A stretch of 45,956 bases of DNA from a virus, in the IMG/VR virus record IMGVR_UViG_3300023180_005414, positions 1 to 45,956 of that record, one strand, 5' to 3'. The notes beneath the pieces are model-generated. The model did no database searches, was not told where the DNA came from, and saw only the letters and a program-made list of their open reading frames with translations. Of the stretch, positions 2,908 through 41,448 are shown piece after piece (positions within the stretch are counted from its first letter, which is position 1; each line of letters starts with the position of its first letter). The position numbers and the translations under genes were made by a program.

Positions 2908-3145
2908 GATTTTTTTGGACTAACGTTAGTAGGAGTGATTTGATATCTCCCATTTCTGATTTTAACTCAGAAATCTCATTTTGTAAATCGTTTAGAGATT
3001 TGTTCTTCTTTTTATCCTGTTCAAGACCGCGCATGTAGTTTTCATACTCACGGCGGTTAGTGTTAACAACCGCCCCAGAGTACTTATCTCGCCCCAGGTG
3101 AGGGTGGTCCGTCACAGGTTGAAGTTCAATTTTCGGGTCAATCAT
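2897..3145 (-). CDS. Small coiled-coil protein, 82 aa, unknown
   Basis: No family is recognised. Residues 1-40 are polar with no clear fold (MIDPKIELQPVTDHPHLGRD). Residues about 50-78 form a heptad-patterned helix (LNDLQNEISELKSEMGDIKS, then LLLTLVQK). The ATG overlaps the stop of the 2385-residue gene as ATGA, typical of translational coupling, and its own end overlaps the 71-residue gene. The pair of coiled-coil proteins after a giant tail gene suggests a joint role in assembling or attaching it; this is inference. Confidence 0.75.
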   Translation of the reverse strand: MIDPKIELQPVTDHPHLGRDKYSGAVVNTNRREYENYMRGLEQDKKKNKSLNDLQNEISELKSEMGDIKSLLLTLVQKNHDN

Positions 3146-18009: not shown

Positions 18010-18016
18010 TATTTAG
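18010..18016 (-). promoter_or_regulatory. Putative cyanophage-type late promoter
   Basis: The minus strand reads CTAAATA, the cyanophage variant of the late promoter, 20 bases upstream of the 288-residue gene. Its TAA is the stop codon of the giant gene, so stop and promoter overlap. Confidence 0.55.
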
Positions 18017-21000
18017 GTGAAGCTACTGGACCAGATAGTAGTCGCGTCGAAGTTGGGAATGGTGTACGCGGTGACTTCAGGGGTCGGCGGCGTCTCGGGA
18101 TTCTCAAGGTCATCAATAATCTGCGCGGTAAGAGGAATGACCTCAAGTTGCGAATCAGTGAATCCTTCTGCACGTTGCTGACGTGTTGCGTTACCGATGA
18201 TGTACGGGAAGATGGGGTTACCATCAGCATCAATTGTCATAAAGTATGCATAGGTGCCGTTGGGGAACTCAGGCGTGACAGAGAATCTTCCGTTGTGGAT
18301 ATCCAGGTCACCAAGTCCGTAGACGTACTCATAATCATTGATGAACGAACCAGGCGGCAAAGTGACGAAACTATGTGTCCGCCCGTAAGCCTCAGTAGCG
18401 AGAAGTCTGTACGAGGAGGTCATACGCTTGACACCACTGGTATTTTCTGCGCTAACGCGATATCCGAAAGGACCATAGATGGGATAACCATCAGATGCCC
18501 AACCGATAATCTTAGAGTGACCATCAGGATGACGATAGAAGTTGGACTTGAAGTTTGTGTCACTCAGGTAAGGGGTAGAGCGATAGAAGTTTCTTGTCCA
18601 GCAGTTCATCAGGAAGGAACCAGAACGGTAGCTGTACTCGCCAGATTGCTGGTCGGGCACGCCGCCGCAGGCGTCAACGCCGTACTTGTCTTCATGGAAG
18701 ACGCGGTTCCAGTAGAATCCTGTAGGTAGTTCCAGAGTTGTGGTTGGGAGAGTTGCCGAATCATCAAATGCAGTGCTGAGAACGACACCGTTGATAGCAA
18801 CACCGACAGGACCAATGCCCGTATGCATCGGGTTGGAAGTATTGCTTCCTGCGCGATAAGTGAAGGAATACTGTTCGTTCTGAGCGATAATTCCAAGACC
18901 AAGGTCGGGGAACTGTGAAGAACCCAGAGGAATGCCATTAAGCGCGGGAGCGGGTGTTCCAGCAGTATTAATCTCAAGCAGAGTTTGATTAGCGTTCAGG
19001 TCAGGGACAGTAGCAGAGTTGTCAACGCTGACGAAAGTTGTCTCGGGATTGAATCCAGAGATAACCGTGGGCGCGAGCACGCCCGCGAGCACGCCACCTT
19101 CGCTATCTAGAGTCTGAATACCATCTGCTGCAGCAGTGACATCGCCAGACTGTGGAGGATTATTTGCAGGAACTGCAGGAGCGATGATGTCTTCCTCCAG
19201 AACCTGAGCAGTACCCTCAGCAGGATATGAATTGATGTCGGGATATACATAACCCTCAGGAACTTCAGTGTCGGGATTTACGGATGCATAACCGTAGTTT
19301 GTACCGCCTTCCTTAACATCAATTCTCTGAACACCAACCAGTGCCTTGAGTTGTCCATCGAAACCACTTGTCGAGTCAACACGGACGACGGGTCTGGTTG
19401 TGTAACCATCACCAGGCGAGGTAATTTGTGCGTCTGTAATACGTCCTCTGAGAATCTGAGCACTTGCTGCAGCATCCTTACCAAAGATAGAACCAAGGTA
19501 GTCGAAGGTAATGAGCGAGTTAGACGATTCAATGATAGCGATTTCTCTATCTTCAGTTTCACCCTCAATGTCGAGGAGGTCACCAGCTTCCAGAGGAGGA
19601 ACGACGGTCGCCGCCACAACGTCTGCGTCAGAACCAATGTAAGAGAATCCAACGAATGTAGAACCGAATCTAGGAATCTCCGAGAAGATGATTCTAGAAC
19701 CAACCAGTTCAAAACCAATTCCAGGTTCCTGCAGAACGCCGTTGAGAGAGACAACGATGTTGTTTTCTGGACGAATAACGGTAGACTGTACACCTTCCGT
19801 CAGGGTCAGCGAGTAGAAGGAATCTTCAAACAGGAGGTTGAAGGAGGAGCGCAAGGAGTCAAACTCGAACGAGATGTCATTCAGGAAGCGCAGTTTGCCA
19901 ACATAGTAACCCGTGAAGGAAGAACCAGACTCGGGTGCTTCGGTGAACTGGATTTCATCGGAGAATGCCGTGTAAGCATTAGATGCACCAGGAGGTTGAA
20001 GAACACCATTGACGAAGGTGAGCAGGTGCCCTGCGGGGTCAGGGAAGTAGGGGTCGCCGTTGTTGGATGTAATCTTGAAGTTGGTCTGTGTACCGTCAAA
20101 TCCAACAAAGAATCTCTTGACTCTACCCTCAACAGAAACCACATCAGTAATTGCTGCCTTATAGGAGTTAGGACCAACAATCGTGTCATACTTAGTAGCA
20201 GTGCCCTTGACATCAGTGATGTAAAGTCTTTCATACTGGATGAAATCTTTCTTACTGACGACTGTAGCAGCGAACTGCGAAGCGACGTTTGTAACGACGC
20301 TAACTGCACCTTGACCAACTGGGTTACCACCACCAACATAAGTAGCAACGATGTCACTTGATTGGAAAGCACCCTCAACCATGGATACGTAAAGCGTATT
20401 TGTATCAGTATCCCACCCAGAAATAATACCTTCAACACCAGGCTGTGGGATGTTGTCGATAATCTTGTAAAGCGTACCACCAAGAACAAAGTTATCGCGT
20501 GTAACATTGTTGAATGTATCTTCGTAAGGAGTAACTGTAAGTGTTACATAACCCTGCGAGAGAATCTTGTCACTGAGAGAGATGTCACCAGAACCATTAT
20601 GCTTGTAAGCATCGATGTAGAAGGAAGACTTATCAGCGTAGATGACCGAGGTTTCTTCAAATGAACCCTGCAAACTATCAGTATCAATCGTGAGTTTACC
20701 GCCAGTGTTATCAAGAACAGCAGCGTTGTTGTCATAGTATTGAGTGATGATACCAGTAGTTCCAGAATCATATCCCTTGAATGCTTCAGAAGCACCGAAG
20801 GCACCGATTGGGCGGACCACGACCATTCTGTACTCAACAGAGTCAACAGTAGACTCTTCAGAGTTAGTCATGTCAATGAAAGTTCTGCCAGTAGTCCAAG
20901 CAACAGTTCCATTGTCAATGATATCCATGTACTTGTAGTTGCTATCTTCGTAAAGCGCGTAGATAGTACCTGTAGTATTGACTTCATTGACATCAGTGAC

Positions 21001-24000
21001 TGTCATGCCAAGGGTGTAATTGTCAATTAGGTTCGGGTCAGTCTCTGTGATGGTATAACGCAGACGAATCAGCATCTTCTGAACATCAGCAGCATTGCTA
21101 AAGATAGTTCCAGATTCAGCAGATGAACCACTAACCGTGCCATAGATGTATTCGTTAGGAATCAAACCACCGCCCAGAGGCGTGGGAACGATACGAGAGT
21201 TGGGTTTCACATATGTCTTAGACAGATACGTAATACCAGTGTTAGAAGCAACGGTCTCATAGTAATTAGAATCCAACCACTGACTCTTATACTTGTTCAT
21301 GATATCGAGAATCTGAGGCATATAGTCAGCAGAACTATATCCATTCATGTCAGACTTGTAGAACGCGGGGAACGATGCTCTGGTGGAAGGATTGACCAGG
21401 GTTTCGTCCATGGACTGCTGGTAGTAGCGATAGAGTTCATCCAGGATGAACGCCTTGATGTTGTACTCCTTATTTGTGTAGAACCGCTGGCCATCGCTAT
21501 TTGCCTCGTATGCATCCAGTGTTCCAGTGTTCAACTTAGCACCCCAGATGAGGATACCGTCCGTACCGTTACCAGCACCGTTGACCAGAACTTCCGCCAT
21601 GTAGTTGGAAACTCTAAACTCAGCAATACCGAACGGAATGTTGAATGTAATGTAGCAGCGATACCAACCATCACCATAAGGAATGACGTTCATGTCATCC
21701 ACGGTCATGCCACCACCAACAAAGTTGCTGGACTTCTCACCACTAATCAGGTTGAAGTTGAAGAATGCGTAGGAGTAGTTTGACAGATATCCAGCAAGAC
21801 CACTCATACCCCAGGATACGTGGAATCTTATCTGACCATAACCTGCTTCCTTGTAGAAGCAAGAATATGTAAACTTCTGGGAGGAACCTTCTGCACCAGT
21901 ATCGAATGTGCTGGAAGTATTATCGAAAGTAATACTGTTACCATCATACGTGCTGTAGGTAGAGAGTGGATAATTAAAGAAGATGACCTTTTGTGTGGTA
22001 TTGTTACCAGGAATCCACTTGTCAGCAGTCAGAGAACCATTAGGTGCTTCATACTGAGTGCCACTAATGCTGCCACCGTATCTGTACCATCCGCCAGGTG
22101 TCTGGTAGGAAGGAAGCATCATGTTTTCAGAGATGTCACCCCAGATAGTATTGCTCAGAATATTGTCAACAGAGCCTTCGTTATTAAGCAGGTTGGGCAG
22201 AGTACGAAGAGTTGCCAGAGTCTCTGTATTGTTATACGTCGTAGAACGTCCAGGTGTAGTTCTGGTTACAGTGTTCAGGAAGTCTGTCTGCGAGTTATCT
22301 GCTTGGTAGATTGTCTGATAGATGATATCCATCATTGTGGTGATGGATTGTGCAACTTCAGCACACAACGGCAGGTCGTCATCCAGAATGATATCATGGT
22401 TTCTAACCTGAATCTCATTGTGAGTACCAGTCTTAATTACGAAGTTGTTACGCATGACTTCAATTGCCATGTCTCTAGCAGCGTTGATTGCCCAGAGAGT
22501 TTCGGTAACTTCAGTTTCTACGTGGCTCAGTGCGATAGGATTCTGAGTGCGGTCAACATAAAGTGCAGCAGCATCCCATACTTCATGGTTTCCACCATTT
22601 CTCAGGTTGTATGCAACAGCATCGAGGATATCCTTGATGTCATCAACACAGTTAGAGTTACCGCCAGGAATTTGCAGTGCAGGATACTCTGCAACCAATC
22701 TAGCAACAACTTCTTCAGCAATAAAGTCGCGGTTGATGCCAATCAGGTTACCAGCATCTTGGAACTTATCACCAGGGCGAGAAGTGAGAGGAGTTGTGAT
22801 AACGTCGTAAACAATGTCATCGGTGATTGTATCAATCAGACCCTCATACTCAGTTGTATCCCACTCATTGATACCCCACTCTTGCTTGACCGTTTCTGCA
22901 ATTTCTTCCTTATAGTAGTGCTCATTAAACAGGATTGCATTCATTGCGCTGACAGACTGGAGTCCGCCAGGTGCAAGTTGCTCAACAGGAAGTGTCCAGA
23001 GAGTTTCGATTGCAGTCTTAACGTCTGCACAATCGCTATCAATGTATGTTCCACTAGAAACATCATGGGTGACCGTAGTGTCAATATAAGCATCTTCAGT
23101 GGTGTACATCGCAACATAATGGTCGGGAGAAGTTTGAACCGAACCTTGAGTTTGCAGCAACTGGTTGATTGCCTTGTGCGCGAGCATCTTGGCATAGTTT
23201 AGAGCATACAGAGTAGCGGGAAGTTGGTCTTCAACGTGAAGTACTTGCTTATTCGCATCAATGTAAGTCTCCAGAGCAATTACAGTATTGGAGTTACCAC
23301 CAGTCAGGAGGTCGGTGATAAGTGCCTTAATCATCTCCTTAACGTCTCTGATGCACTTATTACGTCCATCAATGCTACCACCAGGATATTCAAATGTCTT
23401 GTAAGAGACTTGGTTAATTTCGTAAGTGAAATATGCGTCAAGAGCACCTGCTGTTTCTTCAGCGATATAATCTTGATTCTTCCAAAGTGCATTACCAGCA
23501 TCGACAAATCTGTCTCCAGTAGGAGCAAGAATTGCATTCATTTGGTCGAGCATCGTATCAACTGCCGCCTTGACATCAGCACACTTACCAACAGCAACAA
23601 CCGAGTTAGGAAGGGCGCTGGAGAATGTGTGTGCATAATTACCGCCAGAGACAACTGCGCCAGCTGTAGCAGAGACGAACCTATGTTCGTACTGAGAAGA
23701 CGATGCTGCAATACCAACGTTAATGTTAATCGTGGTAGGTCCTACGCTATTAATCTTCAGAGCAGTGTCATATGCAGGGTCGGAAGCACGGGGGTAAGTG
23801 TGGGTGCTAGCGTAGTTGTCAGAAGAGCATGTGAATGTCAGAGAGTTAGCAGCAAGTTTGATGCTTGTACCAACAGGCAGCGAATGTGTACCGATAGTCA
23901 GTTGCAGGTTACCAGTTGCAGCATTGTAATAAGCATTGCTTACGTCGTAACTAACGATAGGTGAAGCACCTGCATTAACCGTAATCGTAGTTGCTGTAGC

Positions 24001-30000: not shown

Positions 30001-33000
30001 TTCAATGTTTAGGGGGAACTTCATAATTGTTGCACCGCTGGTAATTGTTGCACCAGCAAGTTGTTCAATACGGAATCTTCCCAGATAAGGAGAATTCTGA
30101 ACGTCCAGATATGCCGTGTTGGACATCGGAGGTTCGGAAGTTGTTCTAGAGGGGTCGAAGTAGTACGAAATATTGGTAACTTCTTCGTTAACTGCAAGAG
30201 AAACGTAAGGTTTGACACCACCAGTAACAACGCCAGGAGTACCAGAACGCTCAATAGCATTGAAAGAGTATTCCAGTTTATAGAGATTATCTTTAGAGAA
30301 TGTTAGATAATAACCAACCATCGACGGGTCAGATACGTCAAAGACGTACTGGTGACCGTAGAACATCGGAAGAACAGGTGTCTTAGCAGAAACCACTACA
30401 TTATTTGCACCACCATTTGCTTCGGCGGGGTTATCTGTAGGAACTCCTCTCAGAGAGTATGTAAATTCTCTGCTGGTGAAGACTTCCTTAACGAAGAATG
30501 AACCGTCATAGTCATTAGCAGTACCATCACCACTGTTACCAGTAATGTGAATGATTTCATTGGGTTTGAGGTAATGTGCAGTTGCGGTTGTTACATATGC
30601 AATATCTGTGTTATTAATTGCACTATACTTAACAATTTTGGTCAGATTAGTCACCAAAGTAATTTTGGTGACACCAGTCAAACCACTAATAGTCAGAGTG
30701 CTATATTCGGAGTTGAAAGAAAGTTGGTCAGAGGTCAAACTGACAACAGAACCAACAACAAACTCAGAGGAGCCACTGATATCATCGATTCTTACGCTGT
30801 AATCTGGGTCACTATGGGGTTTGAATCTTGCAAACTCATCAAGATTATTTGTTGCAGATGGGTCAATCAGAGTGAAGTCTTCTTGTGCAAGGTTGAAATC
30901 AAAGACGCCAGGAGTAGTGTTAATTACTTCAGCAAAGACATATCCTTTAATTTCGTTAATATCATTGACATTAGTTTTCAGTTCTCCAGAATCAATATAA
31001 GTATCCCACTCACCAACAATATCAGCAATGTCAATTGTATTCGGATGTGCAGTTGTATCAACGTCAATAATCTTTGCTTGTGCTGCAATAGTGCCAGCAT
31101 TCCAGACCTGAAGTGTTGCACCCTTAGTGAAGTTCACAGGGAAAGCATTTGTAGTCAATCTTTGTACGTTGTTGACCTTGGTTGTGGTCGATTGTGCAAT
31201 AAAGAACTTACCATATGCCTTAGGAGTTACCCGAACCTTCTTAGAACCAGGAGCAGGAATTGTAGCAGTTCTAGTCGCCCAAACATCAGTAATCTGACTT
31301 ACCGTCATGATATCCTGAGTAAGAAGCGATGCTACGTCATTATAGTCAAGAACCTGATAACCTTCTGATGCTAGGTCATAACCAACAATGTTATTTGTTA
31401 CCGAAGCACCTCTAGTGATTGTAGTATCATCAGTTTTATTAAATACAATGCCATTATTGGTTGTAGAGAATCTACCAGTTCTTTCGTTTGCAGTTACCTT
31501 ATCTAACTTGTGCAGAATTGCATCTGTATGAATGTAATCGGTACGACCATAATACGCAGTGTATTCTGCAGTAACAGAAGGTGCAGTTTGAGACAGAACT
31601 CTATCACTAATCTTAACACCATCAATATAACCAGAGAACTGAGTCGATGCATCATAGGCACCAGCAGTATTGGTGAATCCAGGAGCGTTAGCAACGAAGA
31701 AGTTATTATTCAGATTAATAGAAGGAGCAGTTGCTTGGCAAGCAATAGTACCATCAACAGCAAGAGTGTATGTATTACCACTCTTAGTCAGCGAAACAAA
31801 GTGCCAAGTATCAGTCGAAATTACACCAGCGGGTGAAACAATCGGAGAGCTACCATAAAGTGCTGTAGCATTAGCATACAACAGAATTGCATTAGTATTG
31901 CCAGAAGAACCAGTTCTATCCCAAACAACACTGATGCCAGGTCCAGTCCAGTCACCAAATGTAAACAGGGCAGGATTTGCTCCAGTATAACCAGCAGTTA
32001 CATACTGAGAACTTGCATTGAAGAAACCAGAGACCGTGAAGTCTTTGCTGGTCATGTCACCAAGACCATACAGAGTTGCGGTGTCTCCACTTTGTACATT
32101 CAAGTATGCTGCGGAATATGTTGCAGCATTGATGTCATAACCTTGTACATCCAATGCAGTATTAGAACCTCTACCGATAGAACCTGCACTATCACCAGTC
32201 CAAGTTACGTTAGTAGTCTTTTCAGTTGTGTCTCCAAACCCTGGGGAAGAACCATCAAGTTCAAAATCAAATAGTGCAACAGTTCTATTGTGCTTCTGCT
32301 GACCAACAAGAACATGGTCTCCAGAAACATCAGAGTGAGATGCATACCAGGAACCACCCTCAGTACCACGCTCATAGTCAACCTTATAATTGGTTTGAAC
32401 GCTACCATTATAAGAAATCTTGAGGAAGTGGTTAATTACCTTCTTATCACTTGCTCGAACAACTTCAAGACCAACGTTAAGGTGGTTAAAGAGGTCAACA
32501 TTACCCGAAACCATCTTAATGCTGTCAATATTGACATTACCACAATCATAGATGTAGCTCCAGATAGGAGCAACTCCAAGACTGTACTTACCTACCCAGA
32601 AATTCTTACGCTCAAGATTAGTCTTATTAACAAGTTCAGCACTAATCCACAGTTCATTAAATTCGTCAATGACCATGTGTGCATTATCAAGTGCAAACCC
32701 AGCATTAGAAACTTGCTGCAGGGTGTTACTTACAATACCAAACTGAGTCAGTTGACACTTACCAATAACCAATGATTTGTCATCGCTGGTCGAGTTAGGG
32801 GCAGTTTCCATCAAATAGTAAATTCTATCGATGTCCTGACCAGTAGTTTCGTGGTGTACTACGATATCAAGCAGTTTCTCAGAACGAGTCAGAGAAGTGA
32901 ATTTTCTCTTAGCAACAAAGTTACCCAGTTCATTAAGAACGATGATAAAAGCATCATATGCAGAACTGGTGTTAGTATCTGTATATCCACCAAGGATATA

Positions 33001-36000
33001 ACGGTCTGTTGTCAGTTTTGTCAAAGACGTGATGTAATCACCACGAGAAATACCAGAAATACCAGCATACTCACGCTGCCAGTCGAGAGTTGCAAGAAGA
33101 CCAGTGTTATTTTGGTTATACTTAGCAACGATGATGTCTGGATTATGTGCGGGGTTGATTCCACTGGGTTTTGTATGTCCTGCGACGATAACGGTGTTAG
33201 CGTCATCTTCATCGACATAAATTTCCGTCAATTCACAATAAGAATCTCCAGTAATATTGGGAGAGTTAGAACGGAGCGACTTTTCCCAAACTTTGATACC
33301 AGTAGAGTTGTACTTAGCAACAAAACCGTAGAAGTTACCAACAGCATCCTGAGTCTTACCTACAACATAGGTATCTTTGTTAGAAGTTGTGGTGACATTA
33401 TGAATAACGGTCTCCTCACCAGTACCATTGATTGTGTTGAGGAAGTAGTCTGCCTTCTTAAAGATTTGGGGGTGAGATACCAGGATTCTGGGGTCAGTTG
33501 TGAATCCATTACCAGAATTGATAATATTAAATCCAACAACGTTACCAGTTGCAGTGTCTAGTTTGGGTTCAATAACTGCGTCTTGTCCAACGCCATCAAT
33601 TTCAACAGTGATAGGTACTTCTGAGGTATAACCAGTACCAACTTGAGTAACATTCAGTTCTTCAATACCCTTAACAACAGATACCTTAAATTCTTTATTG
33701 GTATTTGCCTGAATTGGTGTATATTGAACATTGATGATGTCAGCAATCTTCAGGTCATGAGGGTCTGCACAAGTAATAACGCCATAAGGAACGTCATTAA
33801 TCATTTCAAAGGTGTAAGAATCAATCGTCTTACCCTTAATTTCAGAAACTCTCGCAGAAATTCCATATCCATCAGTATCGGTATCATCAAAGACCAGTAC
33901 GTCATTTACCTGATAGGATTGACCAGGGTTTTCAATAATAAAACCGTCAACCTTAGCGTCTTCAAACTTAGTAGTCGTTTCTACTTCAATATCGACTCTA
34001 GAATCAAATTTGACAGTCGGGAAGTAATCAAATACCTCAAGACGGTCCTCTTCTTCAAGTTGATTGACCGCAGCTGCCTCAGTGGTATCAATAATAGAGT
34101 CTCTGTTATCGTCTTCGGGTTCTAACTGAATAAAGTCACCATCTTCAAAGGTGATTGTGTCAGTTTCAGCGTTAGGAGTTCTTTCAACGTCAATATCAAC
34201 ATTCTCATAAGGGTCACGGAATCTAACAACACCACCAGGGATATTTTGCTGTACCGCAGTCTGCTGGAGGTTCCACTTATCAACAACAGAGTTCCAAGAG
34301 GGACCAAGAACATAGGGGAAGACTGGATTGCCTGCTTCAGAAGCATCAATGGTAACGAAATAGCAATATCTGCCTGTTGGGAAATCAGGAGTCTTAGCAA
34401 AACGACCGTTGTACTGGTCAAGGTCACCAGAACCAAAGTTGTACTGATAATCTTCAACAAAAGAACCTTGTACATACTCGGTCAAAGAAGGACCATCAAT
34501 ACGAGCAGGGGTGGGATTTGTATCTGGATGATAAATTAGGTTTGTTTTTAATGCATAAGACGATGACATTCTCCTGATTGCAGAAGACTGGTCGGTTGGG
34601 TCATCATAACCATAAGGACCGTAAATAGGGTTACCATCAAATGCCCAACCAATAATTGGGGAGTGCTGAAGACCAACCTCTTGCTCTCTAATCAATCCGT
34701 TAGAGTCAAGAATCATATTGTCACCCAGAACGTATCTCAGACGCTGAGGGTTAGCAATGTGAGCATACTCACCACCATACTGGGTGTTATATCCTTCAAA
34801 AACAGCACCATATGCTTCGTCAAAGTCACTGTTTGCTTGGAGGTTATAAGTCCACTCAAATACTTGGGAATCGAACTCAGCGCCACTACCAACGGATGTC
34901 AGAGTAACAATTGTGGTGCCAGATTCGTATCCAATACCTTTGTTAAGGATTTCAATGCCAGTAACACGACCAGCATTCTCGCCATCGGTATCGATAACAG
35001 CACGAGCAACAGCACCGAAACCTTCGCCGTAAATAGCAACTTCAGGAGGAGTGGTGTATCCATTACCTGCAGCAACAATAGCAATGGAGATAATACGACC
35101 ATTATTAACGATTGCTTGTGCAGCAGCACCAGTACCAGAGCTTAGAGTGATATTTGGTTTGCTGGTGTAAGAAACACCACCATCACTAACAACAATCTCC
35201 TTAATAGGTCCACGAACTTGTGCTCTACCTGTAGCACCAGAACCGCCACCACCAACAATCGTAATATCGGGTCTAGAGGTAAAACCTGTGCCACCAGAGT
35301 TCAGTAGAATTCTAGAAACAACACCTTTAGTTACAATAGCAGTTGCAGATGCTCCTTCGCCCCCGCCTCCAACGATAGAAACAAGAGGTGAAGATGTATA
35401 TCCAGAACCACCGTTCAGTACCTCAATTTCGGTTACAGAACCATTAACGATGACATATCCTTCTGCACCAGTACCACCACCACCGCTGATGCTAAGAACT
35501 GGCGGAGAAGATGCATCATAACCTTCACCAGCATCAGTAATATTAACAGATGTCAGAGAACCATAGATTTTGGTCAGTTCAGACTTGTATGACCAAATAG
35601 ACACACCATTTGCCCAAGTACCGAGAGGACCAGGAGTAATGTTGTCTTTTGTAGAAATTGTTTCTGGGTTTCTGGGAAGTCTATACAGTTTTCTCTGGTT
35701 TCCAGGAATCAGAGCAGTTTCATTGAACGGACCAACTTTATAGTTGGGAATACCAGATGCTGCGATGTAAACGTAGTCAGTATTGAAGAACGTATTTTGG
35801 ATGTTTGTGGTATAGTTACCAATAATTTTTTGAATGGACTCAGTGTCAGATTTACCACGGTTAAGGTCAACCGAAATCAAAATATTACCTTGAGGAGTGG
35901 TAGATGCTGGTTGGGGAAGTTGATACTTGAAGATATAAGCATCTTCTCTAGATTGAACCAGGAATGTACCGTTGTACAGGTTAGGGTTTGCACCATAAAC

Positions 36001-38964
36001 CGTAACTTGGTCTCCAACCAGAAGACCATGGGGGTTAGTGCATGTTACGGTAGCAATTCTGTCTCCAACACCACCAAATTCAACGCTCTCAACCTGAACA
36101 AGTTTTTTGACGTTGTAAATCCAAGATTTCAGTTGAGGAATGTCTTCAGTAGAACCAAGTTTAGAAACGGTCAGTTTATCACCAGACAGATAGTAAGAAC
36201 CATCATCGGTCAGTACTGTTTGTTCTGCTTCAACGATACCAACAATCTGAACAACAACTTCCTGAGCGGTTCCTTTATTGATGTATGCATATGTGTCAGA
36301 TTGCACCTCTGTTGCAGCATCCCACTTCCTAGAAGTTGTTCCGTCGATGCCACGAGTACACTCAATGAACTGGTTTAGGGACTTTTCCTTATAACGAACC
36401 TTTTCCTCACCATTGATTACAAATACACCGTTTCTCTCAGGCCAACCAACAGTAGAGTCAACAATAATAATCTCATCCTTATCAGTAATACCTTCGCAAA
36501 GGCGTGTCTTGTAAGGAATTGCAAAAGAACCTTCGATTGTTTCCTCGGACAGAATCAGTTCAAAGATTTCATAATCTGAAGTACGAATAGTCAAATAGTT
36601 TTCAATCAGAGCACTTGCTGCTTTGACGTTAGTGTCAACAGCATCTGCATCTTGGGTCAGAAGACCATCAGTGATATTTCTTGGGTCACCAGAAATCAGA
36701 ATACAACGAAGAACTGTATCAATAGTCCAAGTCGCAGCAGAAGGTTTAACAATCTGCTCCTTAGGGTAGGTAATTTCAATATCCTCACCGTAAATCAGTT
36801 TGAATAGGAATGCAACCGAATCTTGAGTACCCTTAGATGCATAAAACTTTCTAATATTCTTGATGATGTTAATAACATCAATCTTCTCATAATCAAAGTA
36901 AGGAACATTGGGAAGATACTGTTCAGCAAACTTAGAAATCATTTTCTGAACGAAGAGACCGTCCAGAGAACTAACTCTAGGGGAGAATGTTGCTGTGAGT
37001 GTGTGTGCTTTTGCAGTAGTGCTATTTTCAAAGATAGCATTACCAGCAGAATCATATTCTACAAGTCCACTTACACCTCTAACACAACCCTCAAACTTTG
37101 CTTGAGTGTATTCTTGACCTTGCTCAAGTACTTTGAAACCTGTAACTGCAGCAAAACCAACTTCAGCAGATGCTTTTGCTGAGGGAGGTCTTTGGATAAT
37201 GATTTTGGGAGGGTTGGCAGTAGAATACCCAGTACCAAACTCAGTAATATTAATATCAGTGATAGAACCATTAAAAATGGTTGCTGTTGCCTTAGCACCA
37301 GTACCACCAATAGGAGTACCAGTTACAGGGTCAGTACGGTCATCAATAATATAAATCGAAGGAACGTCATCAAAACCGATGCCACCGTTCAGCATCTCAA
37401 CATCAATAACACGACCTGCAGCATCAACGGTAACGTCAAGTACCTGGGCCTGATTGTGCTCAACTACACGAACTCTAGGGGGATTTGCCTGACTATATCC
37501 CCTACCAGCATTATTTACAGTTACACTATCAATTTCACCCTTGCTGTTAATGGTGCAAGTGATATTTGCATTAATTGGGTTTTCACCAGTAGGTTCATCA
37601 ATGTAGATAGTCGGTGCTACAGAGTATCCTTTGCCAGGATTATCGATATTGATGGTGCTTGCAATAATTGCGCCATTACCATCAACATTAGGTTGGGTTA
37701 ATGTGCCACCACCAGGAACTTCAAATGTAATTCTAGGAGTAAATGTATATCTAGAACCAGAGTTCTGGAGTTCCAGACTAATTACCTGACCATCCTCACT
37801 TACAGTTGCCGTTGCCGTTGCAGCTTCTCCAGCAGCGTCTGTAGGTGGTTCAATATTTACAATAGGAGGATTAAGGTTACTAAAACCTTTACCTCCACTT
37901 AGAAGGGAAATGCTTTGTAGTCCATTGACAAGAGCAGATGCAACAGCACCGCTTCCATTGTCAGAAACAATAGTTACCTGAGGAGGATACTCAAGTTTGT
38001 AGTTAGAACCACCATTAGTAACTTTAATGCCTGTAATTTCACCAGTATCAGAAATCTGAGCAACTCCAGATGCACCACTACCATAGGAAAGGATAGGTGC
38101 TTCAATAGAACGAACGTTTGCTCTAGAACCCAAAGAAGGGGGATTCGTAAAGATGATGGTGTCACCGTTGATATTGTAATCAACCTTGGGTTCCAAAAGT
38201 TCATTATTCAGAACGACCATCGTATACTCAGTCAAAATAGGACTGTACGAGAAGTCGTTTACAGTGATATTGAAGGTTTTCGTAGTTCCATCAAATTGAC
38301 TATCAAGATTGTCAATTACCTGAATGTTATCTTGGAAGAAACCTTTGAGATATACAATGCTAGTCTGTTCAGACGAATCATTGAGCTGAGGAGACCTAGG
38401 AGGCGTTGTAAGGGTGATTGTAGAGGTATTCAGTACATAATCAACACCAGGCACCAGATACTCGCCATAAACGCGAACCAGGAGGTGATTAGCACTAGGG
38501 GGGACAACCAGATTGCTCTCTGTGGTTACAGAGAAAGTAGATGTAATACCGTCGAAAGAATTATAAGGGTTTACCAGAATTTGGAGTTTATTGTTAAACT
38601 CAGCGTATGAAATACCAGGGGTCAGAGATACTTGAGGCGAACTCGTTGCCTTTTCATAATAAACGATTTCGTCTTCCAGAAGAAAACTGCCATTCTGTTC
38701 CAGGAAGTTTTCAACAGACTCAACGATGATTGTCGAATCCGTAGCAGAGATGCTATTCAGGAGTTGCGTTCTTCCCTGAATCAGGTTGATATCGTACCTG
38801 TCGATATTTGCATAGTCAAGCAGATTTGACAGGATGTCCTGGGACAAACCAGTCTTTTCTTGAGACTTGTAGTAGTACTCAAGAAACTTGACGAAATGAG
38901 GGTTTTCGTCTCTGATGTACTGGGGCATTTGCCCCGCAACAAGCTGGGAAACCGTAGTATTCAT
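18013..38964 (-). CDS. Giant mosaic baseplate/tail protein, 6983 aa
   Basis: One open frame of 20,952 bases encodes a protein of roughly 0.75 MDa. Approximate order: residues 1-60 helical tail-protein start (MPQYIRDENPHFVKFLEYYY); 290-640 GxGY repeats; 700-760 phage-type segment (IIKNIRKFYASKGTQDSVAF, then YGEDIEITYP); 1130-1360 GxGY repeats; 1370-1560 YHYH-type module; 1840-2240 beta-propeller-like stretch; 2290-2455 and 4140-4310 LamG-like domains (GDWTIEGWIRPG, NTWYHVAV); 3005-3245 more GxGY repeats; 4355-5570 five helical repeats with a duplicated TFTC module between copies 3 and 4; 5590-5820 jelly-roll-like region (WYRCYITF...ILIWGAKL); 6670-6930 second YHYH-type module in which the signature reads YSYR. 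It lies between gp6 and gp8, where T4 has gp7 (1032 residues), so it may be the gp7 counterpart with large additions; that is positional inference. A virion role is likely, the details unknown. Confidence 0.85.
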   Translation of the reverse strand: MNTTVSQLVAGQMPQYIRDENPHFVKFLEYYYKSQEKTGLSQDILSNLLDYANIDRYDINLIQGRTQLLNSISATDSTIIVESVENFLEQNGSFLLEDEIVYYEKATSSPQVSLTPGISYAEFNNKLQILVNPYNSFDGITSTFSVTTESNLVVPPSANHLLVRVYGEYLVPGVDYVLNTSTITLTTPPRSPQLNDSSEQTSIVYLKGFFQDNIQVIDNLDSQFDGTTKTFNITVNDFSYSPILTEYTMVVLNNELLEPKVDYNINGDTIIFTNPPSLGSRANVRSIEAPILSYGSGASGVAQISDTGEITGIKVTNGGSNYKLEYPPQVTIVSDNGSGAVASALVNGLQSISLLSGGKGFSNLNPPIVNIEPPTDAAGEAATATATVSEDGQVISLELQNSGSRYTFTPRITFEVPGGGTLTQPNVDGNGAIIASTINIDNPGKGYSVAPTIYIDEPTGENPINANITCTINSKGEIDSVTVNNAGRGYSQANPPRVRVVEHNQAQVLDVTVDAAGRVIDVEMLNGGIGFDDVPSIYIIDDRTDPVTGTPIGGTGAKATATIFNGSITDINITEFGTGYSTANPPKIIIQRPPSAKASAEVGFAAVTGFKVLEQGQEYTQAKFEGCVRGVSGLVEYDSAGNAIFENSTTAKAHTLTATFSPRVSSLDGLFVQKMISKFAEQYLPNVPYFDYEKIDVINIIKNIRKFYASKGTQDSVAFLFKLIYGEDIEITYPKEQIVKPSAATWTIDTVLRCILISGDPRNITDGLLTQDADAVDTNVKAASALIENYLTIRTSDYEIFELILSEETIEGSFAIPYKTRLCEGITDKDEIIIVDSTVGWPERNGVFVINGEEKVRYKEKSLNQFIECTRGIDGTTSRKWDAATEVQSDTYAYINKGTAQEVVVQIVGIVEAEQTVLTDDGSYYLSGDKLTVSKLGSTEDIPQLKSWIYNVKKLVQVESVEFGGVGDRIATVTCTNPHGLLVGDQVTVYGANPNLYNGTFLVQSREDAYIFKYQLPQPASTTPQGNILISVDLNRGKSDTESIQKIIGNYTTNIQNTFFNTDYVYIAASGIPNYKVGPFNETALIPGNQRKLYRLPRNPETISTKDNITPGPLGTWANGVSIWSYKSELTKIYGSLTSVNITDAGEGYDASSPPVLSISGGGGTGAEGYVIVNGSVTEIEVLNGGSGYTSSPLVSIVGGGGEGASATAIVTKGVVSRILLNSGGTGFTSRPDITIVGGGGSGATGRAQVRGPIKEIVVSDGGVSYTSKPNITLSSGTGAAAQAIVNNGRIISIAIVAAGNGYTTPPEVAIYGEGFGAVARAVIDTDGENAGRVTGIEILNKGIGYESGTTIVTLTSVGSGAEFDSQVFEWTYNLQANSDFDEAYGAVFEGYNTQYGGEYAHIANPQRLRYVLGDNMILDSNGLIREQEVGLQHSPIIGWAFDGNPIYGPYGYDDPTDQSSAIRRMSSSYALKTNLIYHPDTNPTPARIDGPSLTEYVQGSFVEDYQYNFGSGDLDQYNGRFAKTPDFPTGRYCYFVTIDASEAGNPVFPYVLGPSWNSVVDKWNLQQTAVQQNIPGGVVRFRDPYENVDIDVERTPNAETDTITFEDGDFIQLEPEDDNRDSIIDTTEAAAVNQLEEEDRLEVFDYFPTVKFDSRVDIEVETTTKFEDAKVDGFIIENPGQSYQVNDVLVFDDTDTDGYGISARVSEIKGKTIDSYTFEMINDVPYGVITCADPHDLKIADIINVQYTPIQANTNKEFKVSVVKGIEELNVTQVGTGYTSEVPITVEIDGVGQDAVIEPKLDTATGNVVGFNIINSGNGFTTDPRILVSHPQIFKKADYFLNTINGTGEETVIHNVTTTSNKDTYVVGKTQDAVGNFYGFVAKYNSTGIKVWEKSLRSNSPNITGDSYCELTEIYVDEDDANTVIVAGHTKPSGINPAHNPDIIVAKYNQNNTGLLATLDWQREYAGISGISRGDYITSLTKLTTDRYILGGYTDTNTSSAYDAFIIVLNELGNFVAKRKFTSLTRSEKLLDIVVHHETTGQDIDRIYYLMETAPNSTSDDKSLVIGKCQLTQFGIVSNTLQQVSNAGFALDNAHMVIDEFNELWISAELVNKTNLERKNFWVGKYSLGVAPIWSYIYDCGNVNIDSIKMVSGNVDLFNHLNVGLEVVRASDKKVINHFLKISYNGSVQTNYKVDYERGTEGGSWYASHSDVSGDHVLVGQQKHNRTVALFDFELDGSSPGFGDTTEKTTNVTWTGDSAGSIGRGSNTALDVQGYDINAATYSAAYLNVQSGDTATLYGLGDMTSKDFTVSGFFNASSQYVTAGYTGANPALFTFGDWTGPGISVVWDRTGSSGNTNAILLYANATALYGSSPIVSPAGVISTDTWHFVSLTKSGNTYTLAVDGTIACQATAPSINLNNNFFVANAPGFTNTAGAYDASTQFSGYIDGVKISDRVLSQTAPSVTAEYTAYYGRTDYIHTDAILHKLDKVTANERTGRFSTTNNGIVFNKTDDTTITRGASVTNNIVGYDLASEGYQVLDYNDVASLLTQDIMTVSQITDVWATRTATIPAPGSKKVRVTPKAYGKFFIAQSTTTKVNNVQRLTTNAFPVNFTKGATLQVWNAGTIAAQAKIIDVDTTAHPNTIDIADIVGEWDTYIDSGELKTNVNDINEIKGYVFAEVINTTPGVFDFNLAQEDFTLIDPSATNNLDEFARFKPHSDPDYSVRIDDISGSSEFVVGSVVSLTSDQLSFNSEYSTLTISGLTGVTKITLVTNLTKIVKYSAINNTDIAYVTTATAHYLKPNEIIHITGNSGDGTANDYDGSFFVKEVFTSREFTYSLRGVPTDNPAEANGGANNVVVSAKTPVLPMFYGHQYVFDVSDPSMVGYYLTFSKDNLYKLEYSFNAIERSGTPGVVTGGVKPYVSLAVNEEVTNISYYFDPSRTTSEPPMSNTAYLDVQNSPYLGRFRIEQLAGATITSGATIMKFPLNIEPEGPADRETSSYSTEAESAVGPIANIRIVNGGGFYKKLPVVDSIVSSRKIERVQITDPGTEYAVGVYYNVPIQGDGEGGFIQITVEDGLDEEGQLIPGQISQVVVTSPGKNYTTAFIDVEAISGILGPSLAGSGAELTVVIPPAGSGASVFVKGTKVGKIKKLKNNNFGFDYPQDYTLRPEISFPVNLQLINTSVLSSIKVTDPGSGYSQAPTVIIEGGGGEGATAVANIKNGRIESIEVKDPGAGYSSEPTISLNSAFSYVINLDLNLFQFSFPHGIPNGAEVKLTVEDNGDGDPAYGITAFGPLVPGQTYYAITGIANGLEGDQMRLALTPDNAAIGDFLSFVNAGVGRQIVLTESFGGAAQAIVATGQFLSGERIYQGESLDQATAFGYISENEGWQSGPKILKVTGYTGTFEKGQKITGTISKSSGTIDNLNMARGVLNISSITKTPGKFTDDVGKPSEIIQKIQDSYYYQDFSYSVKSSVSIDKWRDIVTKNAHPGGFKIFGELGLAETATIENKEIDFELVKSVNLADSAVVPNIQNFTLVEPIYTDFNNTEVLFRQKRLTSSEQILTSVVQRLDDISNLFDGVRFSFPLTVEQNQVVSTTNQLMVVMNGVIQTPGTAYEVQGDQLVFAEPPQPPASVKYVDLGLSFKETYRLSLSTVLGTYPPVGYQVRGVLTNNTALVVRSATNEIDIIYPDQQEGTPINPNIMFRVGVVNTLGPPITAGNGYTDSFNVPTTGGSGTGLTVDTNTNASGQVTSIVLNTGGRDYQVGDIITVLAGDQTCTFEILVIQGEEIRSSAVGFSAFVDSQTLLENNNLFEYKENITDFQGDIASVEAINLDDSTSSPIATLNLSISASATFMYIETEDAEGNALWEVNKQYQLDSEIFTVQAIDTVNDRLTILRGELGTAAVSHQNGSNVYSTDIIKTNNILVSKTTGTYQSTPGLFDINTDEYIISARSGIVAQVVSSAPYRDPVTQTVVPQVNISDGSSFFGLLFNRLVSAENPNTILDDISQSQIQVVDVADNETAINDKFPGNEVVRNTYLTYNPANVNGTGFTIGETLRNYKILFGGQSGNFITDEEVRVNKLSFFDSEGDLVTAGQTIYAENATAEVIGTNYGRKWFYLGKQARGADYLHSFSFTGDAKISDVQSKFGGTSLYLDGTGDYVDVATHTEFGFGTGDWTIEGWIRPGSIAAGSKLIFDMRSASSDRAATLTLNGDILTYIAGNSGITITGTTNISTNTWYHVAVCRSNNSIRMFLNGVQEGPTQSDPSDYGSTRPIRIGADYTNANLFIGYIDEVRVSTNARYDVDFTPRAGIFQGDTNTVLLTHFDGENNDTDTTDWSGVPTYAYGNEYVNTTIPFRYYDACDQIDANASIIADEAVEFFKNTGAGHPNNFTFPNDDGGARCKQDLVLALDALTKSIRSGGNSYVWDAAAYYRVEDENNPALATLSHVDGEVPETIYVMRIAEDIAIATMRNQFGIDNIENNIGSQTYNAWNAVDDIYIDAANEIEANINYIAAEALDRGIAQFPSSTATLTTECSDDIKDVLRSVVTNLKHGGNNHVWDSAWWFLNGGSFNHITTNLTETVWIINSARDLATEIMQGQPSTTVGSHGLTPTIDSTITIDPASPRCAAVESAIDTLMQIITDTLQDPSGSDAVTYPLSITTTGEINGRVRPSKWPVVYSTLYTNTDVSRDTTITIDPLAASNNQLFCANVETAIEDHFNIITQTIEQANTGTNYLNGITRVLPDYIYSGGSFSGYVSVPFIAGTVDNVNDYIVTYQIDGDDRHRFKDAANLIRDNINVIVDEAIGRMLNEYPTLTQLMPRNNGGLSDAGTTRCRTDLVQIANAVADDLEVGGNEKTLQAVRFYLDSNGGILHVRLQLLQSLFAHEQIKDLCKDAIDGTLQTVYSNSIVVPPIGITTDTAAGGQASYTPTTATYDAATGDSVITIGAHSLPVGSSIYLVPNSMTFTCAMDGGNALHTYPRTTDPNYQKYFTITGATATTITVNAGASPIVSYDVSNAYYNAATGNLQLTIGTHSLPVGTSIKLAANSLTFTCSSDNYASTHTYPRASDPAYDTALKINSVGPTTININVGIAASSSQYEHRFVSATAGAVVSGGNYAHTFSSALPNSVVAVGKCADVKAAVDTMLDQMNAILAPTGDRFVDAGNALWKNQDYIAEETAGALDAYFTYEINQVSYKTFEYPGGSIDGRNKCIRDVKEMIKALITDLLTGGNSNTVIALETYIDANKQVLHVEDQLPATLYALNYAKMLAHKAINQLLQTQGSVQTSPDHYVAMYTTEDAYIDTTVTHDVSSGTYIDSDCADVKTAIETLWTLPVEQLAPGGLQSVSAMNAILFNEHYYKEEIAETVKQEWGINEWDTTEYEGLIDTITDDIVYDVITTPLTSRPGDKFQDAGNLIGINRDFIAEEVVARLVAEYPALQIPGGNSNCVDDIKDILDAVAYNLRNGGNHEVWDAAALYVDRTQNPIALSHVETEVTETLWAINAARDMAIEVMRNNFVIKTGTHNEIQVRNHDIILDDDLPLCAEVAQSITTMMDIIYQTIYQADNSQTDFLNTVTRTTPGRSTTYNNTETLATLRTLPNLLNNEGSVDNILSNTIWGDISENMMLPSYQTPGGWYRYGGSISGTQYEAPNGSLTADKWIPGNNTTQKVIFFNYPLSTYSTYDGNSITFDNTSSTFDTGAEGSSQKFTYSCFYKEAGYGQIRFHVSWGMSGLAGYLSNYSYAFFNFNLISGEKSSNFVGGGMTVDDMNVIPYGDGWYRCYITFNIPFGIAEFRVSNYMAEVLVNGAGNGTDGILIWGAKLNTGTLDAYEANSDGQRFYTNKEYNIKAFILDELYRYYQQSMDETLVNPSTRASFPAFYKSDMNGYSSADYMPQILDIMNKYKSQWLDSNYYETVASNTGITYLSKTYVKPNSRIVPTPLGGGLIPNEYIYGTVSGSSAESGTIFSNAADVQKMLIRLRYTITETDPNLIDNYTLGMTVTDVNEVNTTGTIYALYEDSNYKYMDIIDNGTVAWTTGRTFIDMTNSEESTVDSVEYRMVVVRPIGAFGASEAFKGYDSGTTGIITQYYDNNAAVLDNTGGKLTIDTDSLQGSFEETSVIYADKSSFYIDAYKHNGSGDISLSDKILSQGYVTLTVTPYEDTFNNVTRDNFVLGGTLYKIIDNIPQPGVEGIISGWDTDTNTLYVSMVEGAFQSSDIVATYVGGGNPVGQGAVSVVTNVASQFAATVVSKKDFIQYERLYITDVKGTATKYDTIVGPNSYKAAITDVVSVEGRVKRFFVGFDGTQTNFKITSNNGDPYFPDPAGHLLTFVNGVLQPPGASNAYTAFSDEIQFTEAPESGSSFTGYYVGKLRFLNDISFEFDSLRSSFNLLFEDSFYSLTLTEGVQSTVIRPENNIVVSLNGVLQEPGIGFELVGSRIIFSEIPRFGSTFVGFSYIGSDADVVAATVVPPLEAGDLLDIEGETEDREIAIIESSNSLITFDYLGSIFGKDAAASAQILRGRITDAQITSPGDGYTTRPVVRVDSTSGFDGQLKALVGVQRIDVKEGGTNYGYASVNPDTEVPEGYVYPDINSYPAEGTAQVLEEDIIAPAVPANNPPQSGDVTAAADGIQTLDSEGGVLAGVLAPTVISGFNPETTFVSVDNSATVPDLNANQTLLEINTAGTPAPALNGIPLGSSQFPDLGLGIIAQNEQYSFTYRAGSNTSNPMHTGIGPVGVAINGVVLSTAFDDSATLPTTTLELPTGFYWNRVFHEDKYGVDACGGVPDQQSGEYSYRSGSFLMNCWTRNFYRSTPYLSDTNFKSNFYRHPDGHSKIIGWASDGYPIYGPFGYRVSAENTSGVKRMTSSYRLLATEAYGRTHSFVTLPPGSFINDYEYVYGLGDLDIHNGRFSVTPEFPNGTYAYFMTIDADGNPIFPYIIGNATRQQRAEGFTDSQLEVIPLTAQIIDDLENPETPPTPEVTAYTIPNFDATTIWSSSFT
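18170..18960 (-). other. C-terminal YHYH-type module of the giant protein
   Basis: It contains DACGGVPDQQSGEYSYRSGS, RHPDGHSKIIGWASDGYPIY, DIHNGRF and FPNGTYAYFMTIDADGNPIF. It aligns with the neighbouring 288-residue protein, but the signature YHYH is YSYR, so both signature histidines are lost. Confidence 0.75.
21510..22190 (-). other. Jelly-roll-like region of the giant protein
   Basis: It runs from a GSLTADKWIPGN segment through WYRCYITFNIPFGIAEFRVS to ILIWGAKLNTGTLDAYEANS. This pattern resembles carbohydrate-binding-module-like beta sandwiches of phage tail proteins. The assignment rests on motif resemblance only. Confidence 0.45.
22250..25905 (-). repeat. Five copies of a helical repeat in the giant protein
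   Basis: Each copy has a core DAxNxIxxNxxxIxxEAxxR, a YP or FP, a C-x-x-D-(I/L/V) helix, LxxGGNxxxWDAAxxY, then LxHVExxxxETLWAINxARD and MRNN or a similar end. Copies start near 25905, 25498, 24636, 23505 and 22765. Between them lie shorter helices with CAxVxxAIxTxxxII (near 25110, 24870, 23590, 23040 and 22370). Spacing is irregular because other modules are inserted. Confidence 0.75.
23710..24190 (-). repeat. Tandem duplication of a TFTC/TYPR beta module
   Basis: Two adjacent copies of about 75-80 residues share YxAATGxxxxTIGxHSLPVG, then (S/T)SIxLxxNSxTFTC, then THTYPR or LHTYPR and DP. The copies have clearly diverged. They sit between helical repeats 3 and 4. Confidence 0.75.
26040..26540 (-). 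other. LamG-like domain 2 of the giant protein
   Basis: The order is characteristic of laminin-G/concanavalin-like sandwiches: SLYLDGTGDYVDV, FGTGDWTIEGWIRPGS, NTWYHVAVCRSNNSIRMFLN and YIDEVRVSTNARY. Such domains often bind glycans. Confidence 0.7.
29230..29950 (-). repeat. GxGY beta-repeat run in the giant protein (third)
   Basis: Repeats include VQITDPGTEYAVG, VVVTSPGKNYTTA, IKVTDPGSGYSQAPTVIIEG and IEVKDPGAGYSSEPTISL, alternating with GGxGxGAxAxA strands. Confidence 0.7.
31590..32100 (-). other. LamG-like domain 1 of the giant protein
   Basis: It has AAYLNVQSGDTATLY, DFTVSGFFNASSQYV, DTWHFVSLTKSGNTYTLAVD and YIDGVKISDRVLS, the same strand order as LamG-like domain 2 but strongly diverged. 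Confidence 0.6.
32240..33440 (-). other. Beta-propeller-like region of the giant protein
   Basis: Repeated strands of the type DTYVVGKTQDAVGNFYGFVA then KYNSTGIKVWEKSL, and TDRYILGGYTDTN...DAFIIVLNELGNFVAKRKF, recur every 55-70 residues. This resembles SBBP-type propeller blades. Blade number cannot be settled by eye. Confidence 0.55.
34290..34850 (-). other. Internal YHYH-type module of the giant protein
   Basis: It carries HSPIIGWAFDGNPIYGPYGY, RRMSSSYALK, GSFVEDYQYN, GDLDQYNGRFAKTPDFPTGR and VFPYVLGP, matching the second half of the other YHYH modules. The first half, with the signature motif, is degenerate (GEYAHI). Confidence 0.65.
34880..35575 (-). repeat. GxGY beta-repeat run in the giant protein (second)
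   Basis: Seven closely spaced units are visible, for example VNITDAGEGYDASSPPVLSI, IEVLNGGSGYTSSPLVSIVG and ILLNSGGTGFTSRPDITIVG, separated by GGGGxGAxxxAxV turns. It is the cleanest run in the window. Confidence 0.8.
37070..38090 (-). repeat. GxGY beta-repeat run in the giant protein (first)
   Basis: Units include IKVTNGGSNYKLEYPPQVTI, ISLLSGGKGFSNLNPPIVNI, VTVNNAGRGYSQANPPRVRV and INITEFGTGYSTANPPKIII. The spacing is wider than in the second run. Confidence 0.75.
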
Positions 38965-41028: not shown

Positions 41029-41448
41029 TTAGAAGTCTCTTGCTAGAATGAAATCAATTTCATAACTAATGTTTTCCCCAACAATTTGGTACTCCAAGTT
41101 TACTTGGATGCTGTTTTCCTCATAATTAGGAATGAGGTCCAAATTTGTCACGATAATTCGACTCTCAAAGTTTCTAATGGTCTGACGAATCTCATCTTCG
41201 ATAGAGTTGAGTGTAAATGCGTCTAACTGTTCAAACAAAGCCGCATATACATCAGAACCCAGGTTGGGAGCAAAAGGACGCTCCCCCTTACGAGTCAAAA
41301 TTAAATTTTTAAGTGATTGCTTGATGGCATTCTCATTGAGAACCTTACCACAATCATTTGTTAAGGGATTACGCGCAAAACTGACTGCAATATCTAAAAA
41401 AGACTTGCTAAATTGAGATTTACTCGTATTAATCGGTTTTAGTGCCAT
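41029..41448 (-). CDS. gp25: Baseplate wedge protein gp25, 139 aa
   Basis: It belongs to the GPW/gp25 family, a component of the inner baseplate wedge that contacts gp6 and gp53 and starts sheath assembly. Visible family features are DIAVSFARNPLTNDCGKVLN, NAIKQSLKNLILTRKGERPF and PNLGSDVYAALFE, followed by IEDEIRQTIRNFESRI and a final beta pair (IQVNLEYQIVGENISYEIDF). The length is close to T4 gp25 (132). It is directly followed by gp6, an order conserved in T4-like cyanophages. A CTAAATA motif lies 29 bases upstream. Some databases call the family lysozyme-like, but no catalytic function is expected. Confidence 0.93.
   Translation of the reverse strand: MALKPINTSKSQFSKSFLDIAVSFARNPLTNDCGKVLNENAIKQSLKNLILTRKGERPFAPNLGSDVYAALFEQLDAFTLNSIEDEIRQTIRNFESRIIVTNLDLIPNYEENSIQVNLEYQIVGENISYEIDFILARDF

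Follow-up and report, generated by a model that had tools for sequence, protein, structure and literature searches.

A 6983-residue cyanophage gp7 orthologue with inserted modules and phycobiliprotein-like repeats in its tail

The window analysed here, a 45956-base stretch of DNA from a marine cyanobacterial virus, encodes a giant protein of 6983 aa which sequence, gene order and copy number identify as the cyanophage orthologue of gp7. In T4, gp7 is the baseplate-wedge chain that links the two gp6 chains of its wedge. The C-terminal tail of the giant contains five repeats which have a phycobiliprotein-like fold, both by sequence and by predicted fold. The best overall explanation, which we consider quite probable, is a gp7 orthologue with module insertions and phycobiliprotein-like tail domains forming arms. 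Giant gp7 proteins are known in cyanophages. The phycobiliprotein-like arrays in a baseplate protein appear to be new: within the literature searched, which included few subscription journals, no report of such domains in phage structural proteins was found.

The giant gene and its neighbourhood

A single uninterrupted frame with an ATG start was found on the minus strand of the window. It covers 20952 of 45956 bases (45.6%), and an earlier sequence-only reading was correct that one intact frame fills almost half of the window.

18013..38964, minus strand: giant gp7 orthologue, 6983 aa, an intact frame with PHROG 701 matches along its length
38991..41027, minus strand: gp6, the gene preceding the giant (Pfam PF21379, 1.1e-18, and two more gp6 domains)
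41029..41448, minus strand: gp25 (Pfam PF04965, 8.6e-17)

In the direction of transcription the order of genes was PAAR, gp25, gp6, the giant, YHYH, two gp9/10-N, an 1181-aa YHYH/GxGY protein, gp8 and DUF4815, which marks this part as the tail-base genes of a T4-like phage. The sequence-only reading had placed the giant between gp6 and gp8. It does follow gp6 directly, but gp8 (10304-11836) lies downstream beyond four genes encoding the YHYH protein, two T4_gp9_10_N proteins and the 1181-aa protein. The PAAR-motif protein is encoded at 41688-42428, immediately upstream of gp25, an arrangement also seen in the annotations of ACG-2014d, S-RSM4 and MED4-213.

An assembly artefact is unlikely to account for the frame because near-identical metagenome contigs exist and because a 6817-aa protein occupies the equivalent place in ACG-2014d, a sequenced phage. 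Residues 601-900 were present with 98-100% identity on other metagenome contigs at four of the seven loci found, one of the four spanning 736-900 only. Residues 4345-4650 were present with 100% identity at all three metagenome loci, at least two of which are contigs already counted for 601-900. The genome record consists of this 46-kb fragment only, so whole-genome questions were asked of relatives instead.

PHROG 701 matches run along the whole giant. When its first 900 residues were searched against a phage collection, 478 records matched, and in 290 the match covered 80% or more of the query; 458 of the 478 go by the name of Synechococcus, Cyanophage or Prochlorococcus phage. The gene after gp6 encodes 503 aa in Stenotrophomonas phage Ps15, 896 aa in Melnitz-3 and 1006 aa in phiM7, which are compact relatives. 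Cyanophage gp7 proteins ranged from 1937 to 6817 aa (n = 11 measured): 1937 aa in S-CREM2, 3007-5195 aa in eight cyanophages, 6737 aa in S-WAM1 and 6817 aa in ACG-2014d. P-SSM3 and P-TIM40 have frames of 7312 and 7352 codons with the gp7 core. The cyanophage proteins of PHROG 701, for example those of ACG-2014d and S-WAM1, agree with the giant in gene, place, size class and architecture and differ from it in sequence only (55% identity to ACG-2014d over the first 900 residues). In annotations they appear as 'virion structural protein' and as 'baseplate wedge initiator'. A giant gp7 is therefore usual in cyanophages and large size by itself was already known; the sequence-only reading had the size right and missed that it is usual at this place.

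Identification of the giant as gp7

The N-terminal 330-430 residues of 11 relatives, T4 and the clade of the window excluded, were combined into a profile, which was searched against 368 sequences made up of the T4 baseplate-region frames, the window frames and 230 shuffles. T4 gp7 matched at 30.8 bits (E 3.1e-9), and the best of the 230 shuffles scored 4.9. This match makes the FYxxKG core of the giant homologous to residues 729-829 of T4 gp7. In a scan of the whole T4 genome with the same profile, gp7 was the sole match (E 2.1e-9). A profile of block C, built from 14 relatives around the HPxGF motif, matched residues 3440-3513 of the giant (E 7.1e-28) and residues 865-890 of T4 gp7 (E 8.1e-5, 16.8 bits; best shuffle 7.8), which puts the HPxGF block downstream of the core in both proteins. 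The profile search of the PDB gave two gp7 sequences with E values of 2.1e-9 and 1.7e-6, the next match having 0.15. PHROGs 26741, 17744 and 2885 match T4 gp7 (646-759; 1.7e-5 to 3.6e-4) as well as the giant. The sequence-only reading had assigned the frame to gp7 and had pointed to residues 650-1000; both suggestions held, as segments similar to gp7 were found and block B, at residues 618-938, holds gp7-like sequence.

Gene order and copy number led to the same identification. The counterpart of the giant adjoins gp6 in all 14 non-T4 phages opened (within the genome scans, adjacency was read in the 13 records of the first). All 25 non-T4 relatives scanned, namely these 13 records and 12 further cyanophages, have a single gp7 core each, counted as matches covering the FYxxKG region. 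A separate gp7 homologue elsewhere, which the sequence-only reading had named as evidence against its assignment, was found in none of them. The remaining profile matches in these genomes were pieces of block A in the gp7 gene or the small beta module elsewhere, and S-SSM7 had one extra weak match (profile positions 245-309, E 0.006). With a single-sequence query, block C was found once in 14 of 15 records, always in the core-bearing frame; among these 15 records the query did not find block C of T4 gp7.

T4 gp7 (AF158101; PDB 5hx2, 5iv5) and gp7 of the Klebsiella phage vB_Kpn_Lilla1 (9f4a) have the FYxxKG core and then HPxGF, as the giant does, and in both phages the gene follows gp6, likewise as in the window. 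The giant differs from T4 gp7 in two large insertions and an added 3470-residue tail, and no counterpart of T4 gp7 residues 1-640 was found in it. Pfam gp7 domains V and VI, whose models were built around T4-like gp7, are recognised in T4 gp7, whereas none was reported for the giant at E 0.05. These two domains are not known outside close T4 relatives. The 11-relative profile aligned T4 gp7 from residue 729 onward only, and block A was related to the T4 helical domain (643-689) through the bridging PHROGs and reading by eye. The AlphaFold model of the core was poor (pLDDT 53.6, pTM 0.35; the input comprised 44 environmental rows, for the most part taken from every second locus). When it was compared with 350,542 chains, its best fold match was a 1031-residue chain of 9f4a (E 2.9e-3), presumably the gp7 of vB_Kpn_Lilla1, and its seventh was a 1004-residue T4 baseplate chain (E 0.15).

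S-CREM2 gp122 is a homologue of the giant (core 4.9e-59, block C 6.6e-22). It was detected in virions with 91 unique peptides and 27.2% coverage, according to PMC10665884. Cyano- and pelagimyophages are described as being without gp7 and using VrlC in its stead in PMC7029224. For cyanomyophages, the results presented here speak against this absence, and they assign the largest structural proteins of cyanophages to the gp7 position of the T4 map. The GenBank entry of the P-SSM2 protein is already named gp7, and PMC3037559 calls gp7 very divergent.

Blocks, insertions and modules

The anatomy of the giant, by residues of the protein, was as follows.

38638..38961, minus strand: scaffold block A, residues 2-109, comprising the helices at the N terminus and half (the first) of a small beta module
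37114..38637, minus strand: insertion 1, residues 110-617 (508 aa), mainly beta modules and GxGY repeats
36151..37113, minus strand: scaffold block B, residues 618-938, with the FYxxKG core and the region after it
28648..36150, minus strand: insertion 2 between blocks B and C, residues 939-3439, with GxGY, YHYH, LamG and other modules
34342..34797, minus strand: YHYH domain 1, residues 1390-1541, without the YHYH part (Pfam PF14240, 2.1e-31)
31585..32085, minus strand: LamG domain 1, residues 2294-2460 (Pfam PF13385, 3.5e-8)
28426..28647, minus strand: scaffold block C, residues 3440-3513, HPxGF motif (E 7.1e-28)
18016..28425, minus strand: C-terminal tail, residues 3514-6983 (3470 residues)
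26077..26514, minus strand: LamG domain 2, residues 4151-4296 (Pfam PF13385, 5.6e-22)
18226..18867, minus strand: YHYH domain 2, residues 6700-6913, YSYR replacing YHYH (Pfam PF14240, 5.1e-34)

Block A matched profile positions 8-115 with 94.7 bits and block B positions 111-419 with 217.4 bits, the latter also having the gp7 matches in the PDB. Insertion 1 was recognised because its 508 residues separate two pieces that match neighbouring profile positions, and because it contains internal repeats. In the compact relatives the blocks lie close together and the 503-1006 aa forms are largely scaffold; in Ps15 (503 aa) block C matched residues 392-429, and in phiM7 (1006 aa) residues 942-1002. 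In S-CREM2 it matched residues 1862-1928 of 1937. The comparison reveals where in a wedge protein modules get added.

Of the modules listed in the sequence-only reading, the GxGY runs, the YHYH and LamG domains (two of each) and the helical repeats were recovered by the tools used; its propeller-like stretch (~1850-2170) is a candidate module. Internal repeats were detected with phmmer windows; blastp of the giant against itself returned the self row only. GxGY repeats are located at about residues 295-610, 1126-1372, 1751-1830, 3130-3262 and 6490-6560, and a beta module of ~65 residues occurs at five places. Residues 4909-4980 and 4994-5065, between phycobiliprotein-like repeats 3 and 4, are paired modules of ~72 residues that are strongly alike (7e-19). 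P-SSM2 gp7 is 45% identical to this paired-module part (4909-5065), though P-SSM2 is without a repeat match.

The 1181-aa protein of the window matched the gp7 profile at 17.6 bits through the small beta module only (positions 74-125). This module of block A, present at residues ~738-788 of the 1181-aa protein (11873-15418), recurs in other genes of related phages and is therefore a mobile module. Four YHYH-type domains were present in the cluster (17124-17990, 11873-15418, 18226-18867 and 34342-34797), and the YHYH motif is kept only in the separate 288-aa protein. YHYH domains are predicted as hydrolases in PMC7824862. This function was weakened as a candidate for the domains of the giant, in which copy 1 is without the YHYH part and copy 2 reads YSYR.

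A 242-aa gp7 orthologue, gp17 of Vibrio phage XM1, functions as the gp7 chain of that phage and contacts spikes via a loop after its N-terminal helices and via its C-terminus, as described in PMC10457771. It was absent among the PDB matches of the gp7 profile, and its relation to gp7 is taken from that paper. XM1 gp17 is minimal and its spikes are a separate protein, whereas the modules of the giant are part of the chain. It is possible that insertion 1 and the tail of the giant are at places comparable to the spike-binding sites of XM1 gp17.

Phycobiliprotein-like repeats

Tail residues 4340-5528 comprise five related units of ~140 residues each, and repeats 1 and 2 directly adjoin. The sequence-only reading had noted helical repeats in the giant; their likeness to phycobiliproteins had been missed.

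25528..25947, minus strand: phycobiliprotein-like repeat 1, residues 4340-4479 (profile matches)
25108..25527, minus strand: phycobiliprotein-like repeat 2, residues 4480-4619 (profile matches)
24232..24663, minus strand: phycobiliprotein-like repeat 3, residues 4768-4911 (profile matches)
23137..23541, minus strand: phycobiliprotein-like repeat 4, residues 5142-5276 (profile matches)
22381..22797, minus strand: phycobiliprotein-like repeat 5, residues 5390-5528 (modelled copy; fold matches)

A profile of the five window copies gave 109 matches in the PDB at E ≤10, with a best E of 2.8e-6. Among the best 60 of these 109, 59 were named phycobiliproteins and one was a 'bacterial fluorescent protein' (8u0f), the chains of which have the length of phycobiliprotein subunits. 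The reversed five-copy control gave one unrelated match (E 0.24). Environmental repeats (243 matches in 80 loci) were reduced to 73 that were non-redundant, and 71 of these were combined with the five window copies into a set of 76, a short one and one running into another domain being dropped. The profile of the 76 repeats gave 112 PDB matches (best 1.1e-5), and the best 60 of the 112 were all phycobiliproteins. Its CrrDigy stretch aligns to CARDIGY of alpha-phycocyanin, and the motif CxRD[IL]G was found in 50 of the 73 non-redundant environmental repeats. As single queries, a window repeat had phycobiliproteins in rows 1-27 of its 47 (best E 0.012) and an environmental repeat in rows 1-6 of its 27 (best 0.0017).

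The Pfam Phycobilisome family (PF00502) was matched by 27 of the 76 repeats and each other listed family by one; a single repeat reached 0.018, below the cut-off. Among 16 records, PF00502 matched at 18 places at E ≤1, all within repeats, and passed the cut-off in two records (S-RSM4 and S-WAM1). In the control, 4 of 14 named genomes, including that of E. coli, had matches at E ≤1 and one passed the cut-off. Weak PF00502 matches alone mean little.

Repeat 5 was modelled by AlphaFold2 without templates (pLDDT 87.8, pTM 0.83). In the best 50 rows of Foldseek, 49 were phycobiliprotein or phycobilisome entries and the other was 8u0f (best E 1.2e-2, probability 1.00), and the best 50 rows of VIA had the same composition. 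The best VIA match had a Z of 11.8 over 122 residues with an rmsd of 3.5, where Z below ~13 counts as weak for helical models. The phycobiliprotein claim holds despite this value because the fold rows were uniform and the sequence result is independent.

The repeats share with the subunits of phycocyanin, phycoerythrin and allophycocyanin the globin-like fold (predicted here, over the 122 aligned residues), the GG turn after the long helix, and the Cys and Asp of the bilin site. They differ in being tandem units inside a phage structural protein and in a changed Arg in 4 of the 5 window copies. The model of repeat 5 has no helix before residue 10, and the VIA alignments begin at chain residue 20-33. 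In phycobiliproteins, the N-terminal helix pair (X-Y) is used in alpha-beta pairing. This pair is missing in the repeats, which we therefore call phycobiliprotein-like and not members of the family. Derivation from a cyanobacterial phycobiliprotein explains the repeats most simply. By sequence and prediction, these phage structural proteins contain a host light-harvesting fold, most copies of which retain the cysteine for pigment attachment.

Repeats were present in 19 of 23 cyanophage genomes (7/11 and 12/12), the repeat-free ones being P-SSM2, S-SSM7, P-TIM68 and S-CREM2. The 19 genomes have 103 repeat places. Of these, 47 belong to the gp7 frame (8 each in S-WAM1 and P-TIM40), and 56 to different frames or to frames lying at record ends. 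Genes annotated as tail fibre are among the carriers, for example the 'short tail fiber' gene of S-RSM4 (162121-175569). The wider region 4370-5420 was matched by 377 phage records, whose names begin with Synechococcus, Cyanophage, Prochlorococcus or Marine, and T4, phiM7, Ps15 and Melnitz-3 gave no repeat match. With the window helical repeats as query, metagenomes returned near-identical contigs only (3 loci).

Proposed arrangement and alternative explanations

The sequence comparisons show three collinear blocks that make up the gp7 scaffold and represent the part of T4 gp7 after about residue 640; the added modules occupy the two gaps between the blocks and the long C-terminal tail. The five tail domains, phycobiliprotein-like in sequence and model, probably derive from cyanobacterial phycobiliprotein. 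The blocks may anchor the chain in the wedge while the modules protrude at the wedge edge; with modules protruding from each wedge, a virion would have six copies and six arms. The likeliest job of such an arm is contact with the host envelope, because the repeats also occur in separate tail-fibre genes of related phages, and an adhesion role of the giant, as suggested in the sequence-only reading, is plausible. The phycobiliprotein-like domains would most likely be a host fold that was co-opted to act as spacers or to bind.

Most of the length of the giant consists of fibre-type modules common to fibre genes, and VrlC replaces gp7 in cyano- and pelagimyophages in the account of PMC7029224. 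Both points would suit a fibre-like protein with a borrowed gp7 core, the wedge being filled by another protein. We regard this as most unlikely, since the three collinear blocks, the position after gp6 and the single core in 25 of 25 genomes argue against it, and the relatives of 503-1006 aa at the equivalent place are largely scaffold. It is also very improbable that the helical repeats resemble phycobiliproteins through convergence only. The modest scores of single repeats (PDB E 0.012; Pfam 0.018, missing the cut-off), the best Foldseek E of 1.2e-2 and the VIA Z of 11.8, under ~13, would allow for it. However, the matches listed were, 8u0f apart, phycobiliproteins by two routes, sequence and template-free fold, and the reversed repeats gave one unrelated match. 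The alignment of CxRD[IL]G (50/73) with CARDIGY, and PF00502 in 27 of 76 repeats against one for each other listed family, also speak for relationship to phycobiliproteins.

A different function of the gp7 arms would follow if the repeats carry bilin, joined to the conserved Cys either by the CpeT of the phage or by a CpeS/CpcS-type lyase of the host; the virion arms would then be pigmented, for protection, quenching or sensing. We consider this doubtful. The position of Cys-84, the attachment site that phycobiliproteins of cyanobacteria and red algae share according to PMC2327270, is a Cys in all five window copies and in 65 of 76 repeats, and the Asp three residues after it is present in 5/5 and 73/76. 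The Arg two residues after it is present in 57 of 76 repeats, but in just one of the five window copies, and the cysteine is missing in 11 of 76. CpcS-type lyases act on Cys-84 with low acceptor specificity, which favours attachment, whereas T-type lyases such as CpeT act on Cys-155 (also PMC2327270). A cpeT gene over the cut-off was found in 15 of 19 genomes with repeats and in none of the four without (one-sided Fisher 0.0079), a count that ignores kinship and in which 3 of the 12 added genomes were picked from the list of repeat-region matches. Bilin reductases appear uncoupled from the repeats, and the idea that their genes accompany them was unsupported (over cut-off in 5 of 19 genomes with repeats against 2 of 4 without). 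The 46-kb window holds no cpeT, although a fragment of this size is too small to decide the matter.

Bilin genes of cyanophages

Phage bilin genes have so far been explained as an aid to the host antenna, and the repeats are a candidate acceptor for them. A phage CpeT lyase reportedly gave no direct bilin transfer to host protein in a 2017 study. Work on phage CpeT from 2017 is cited in PMC10452541, and pebS is regarded as phage-exclusive in PMC13198022. That cyanophages acquired a host phycobiliprotein, multiplied it and made it a bilin-carrying part of their baseplate and fibre proteins, with pigmented virions as the outcome, seems to us rather unlikely. If it were true, phage cpeT, pebS, pcyA and ho1 would work, at least in part, for the virus's own particle.

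In S-RSM4, only ~1 kb, occupied by an HNH gene and tRNAs, separates cpeT (176523-177047) from the 'short tail fiber' gene that is rich in repeats (162121-175569). In the other genomes with cpeT coordinates that were examined, the repeats and cpeT are far apart.
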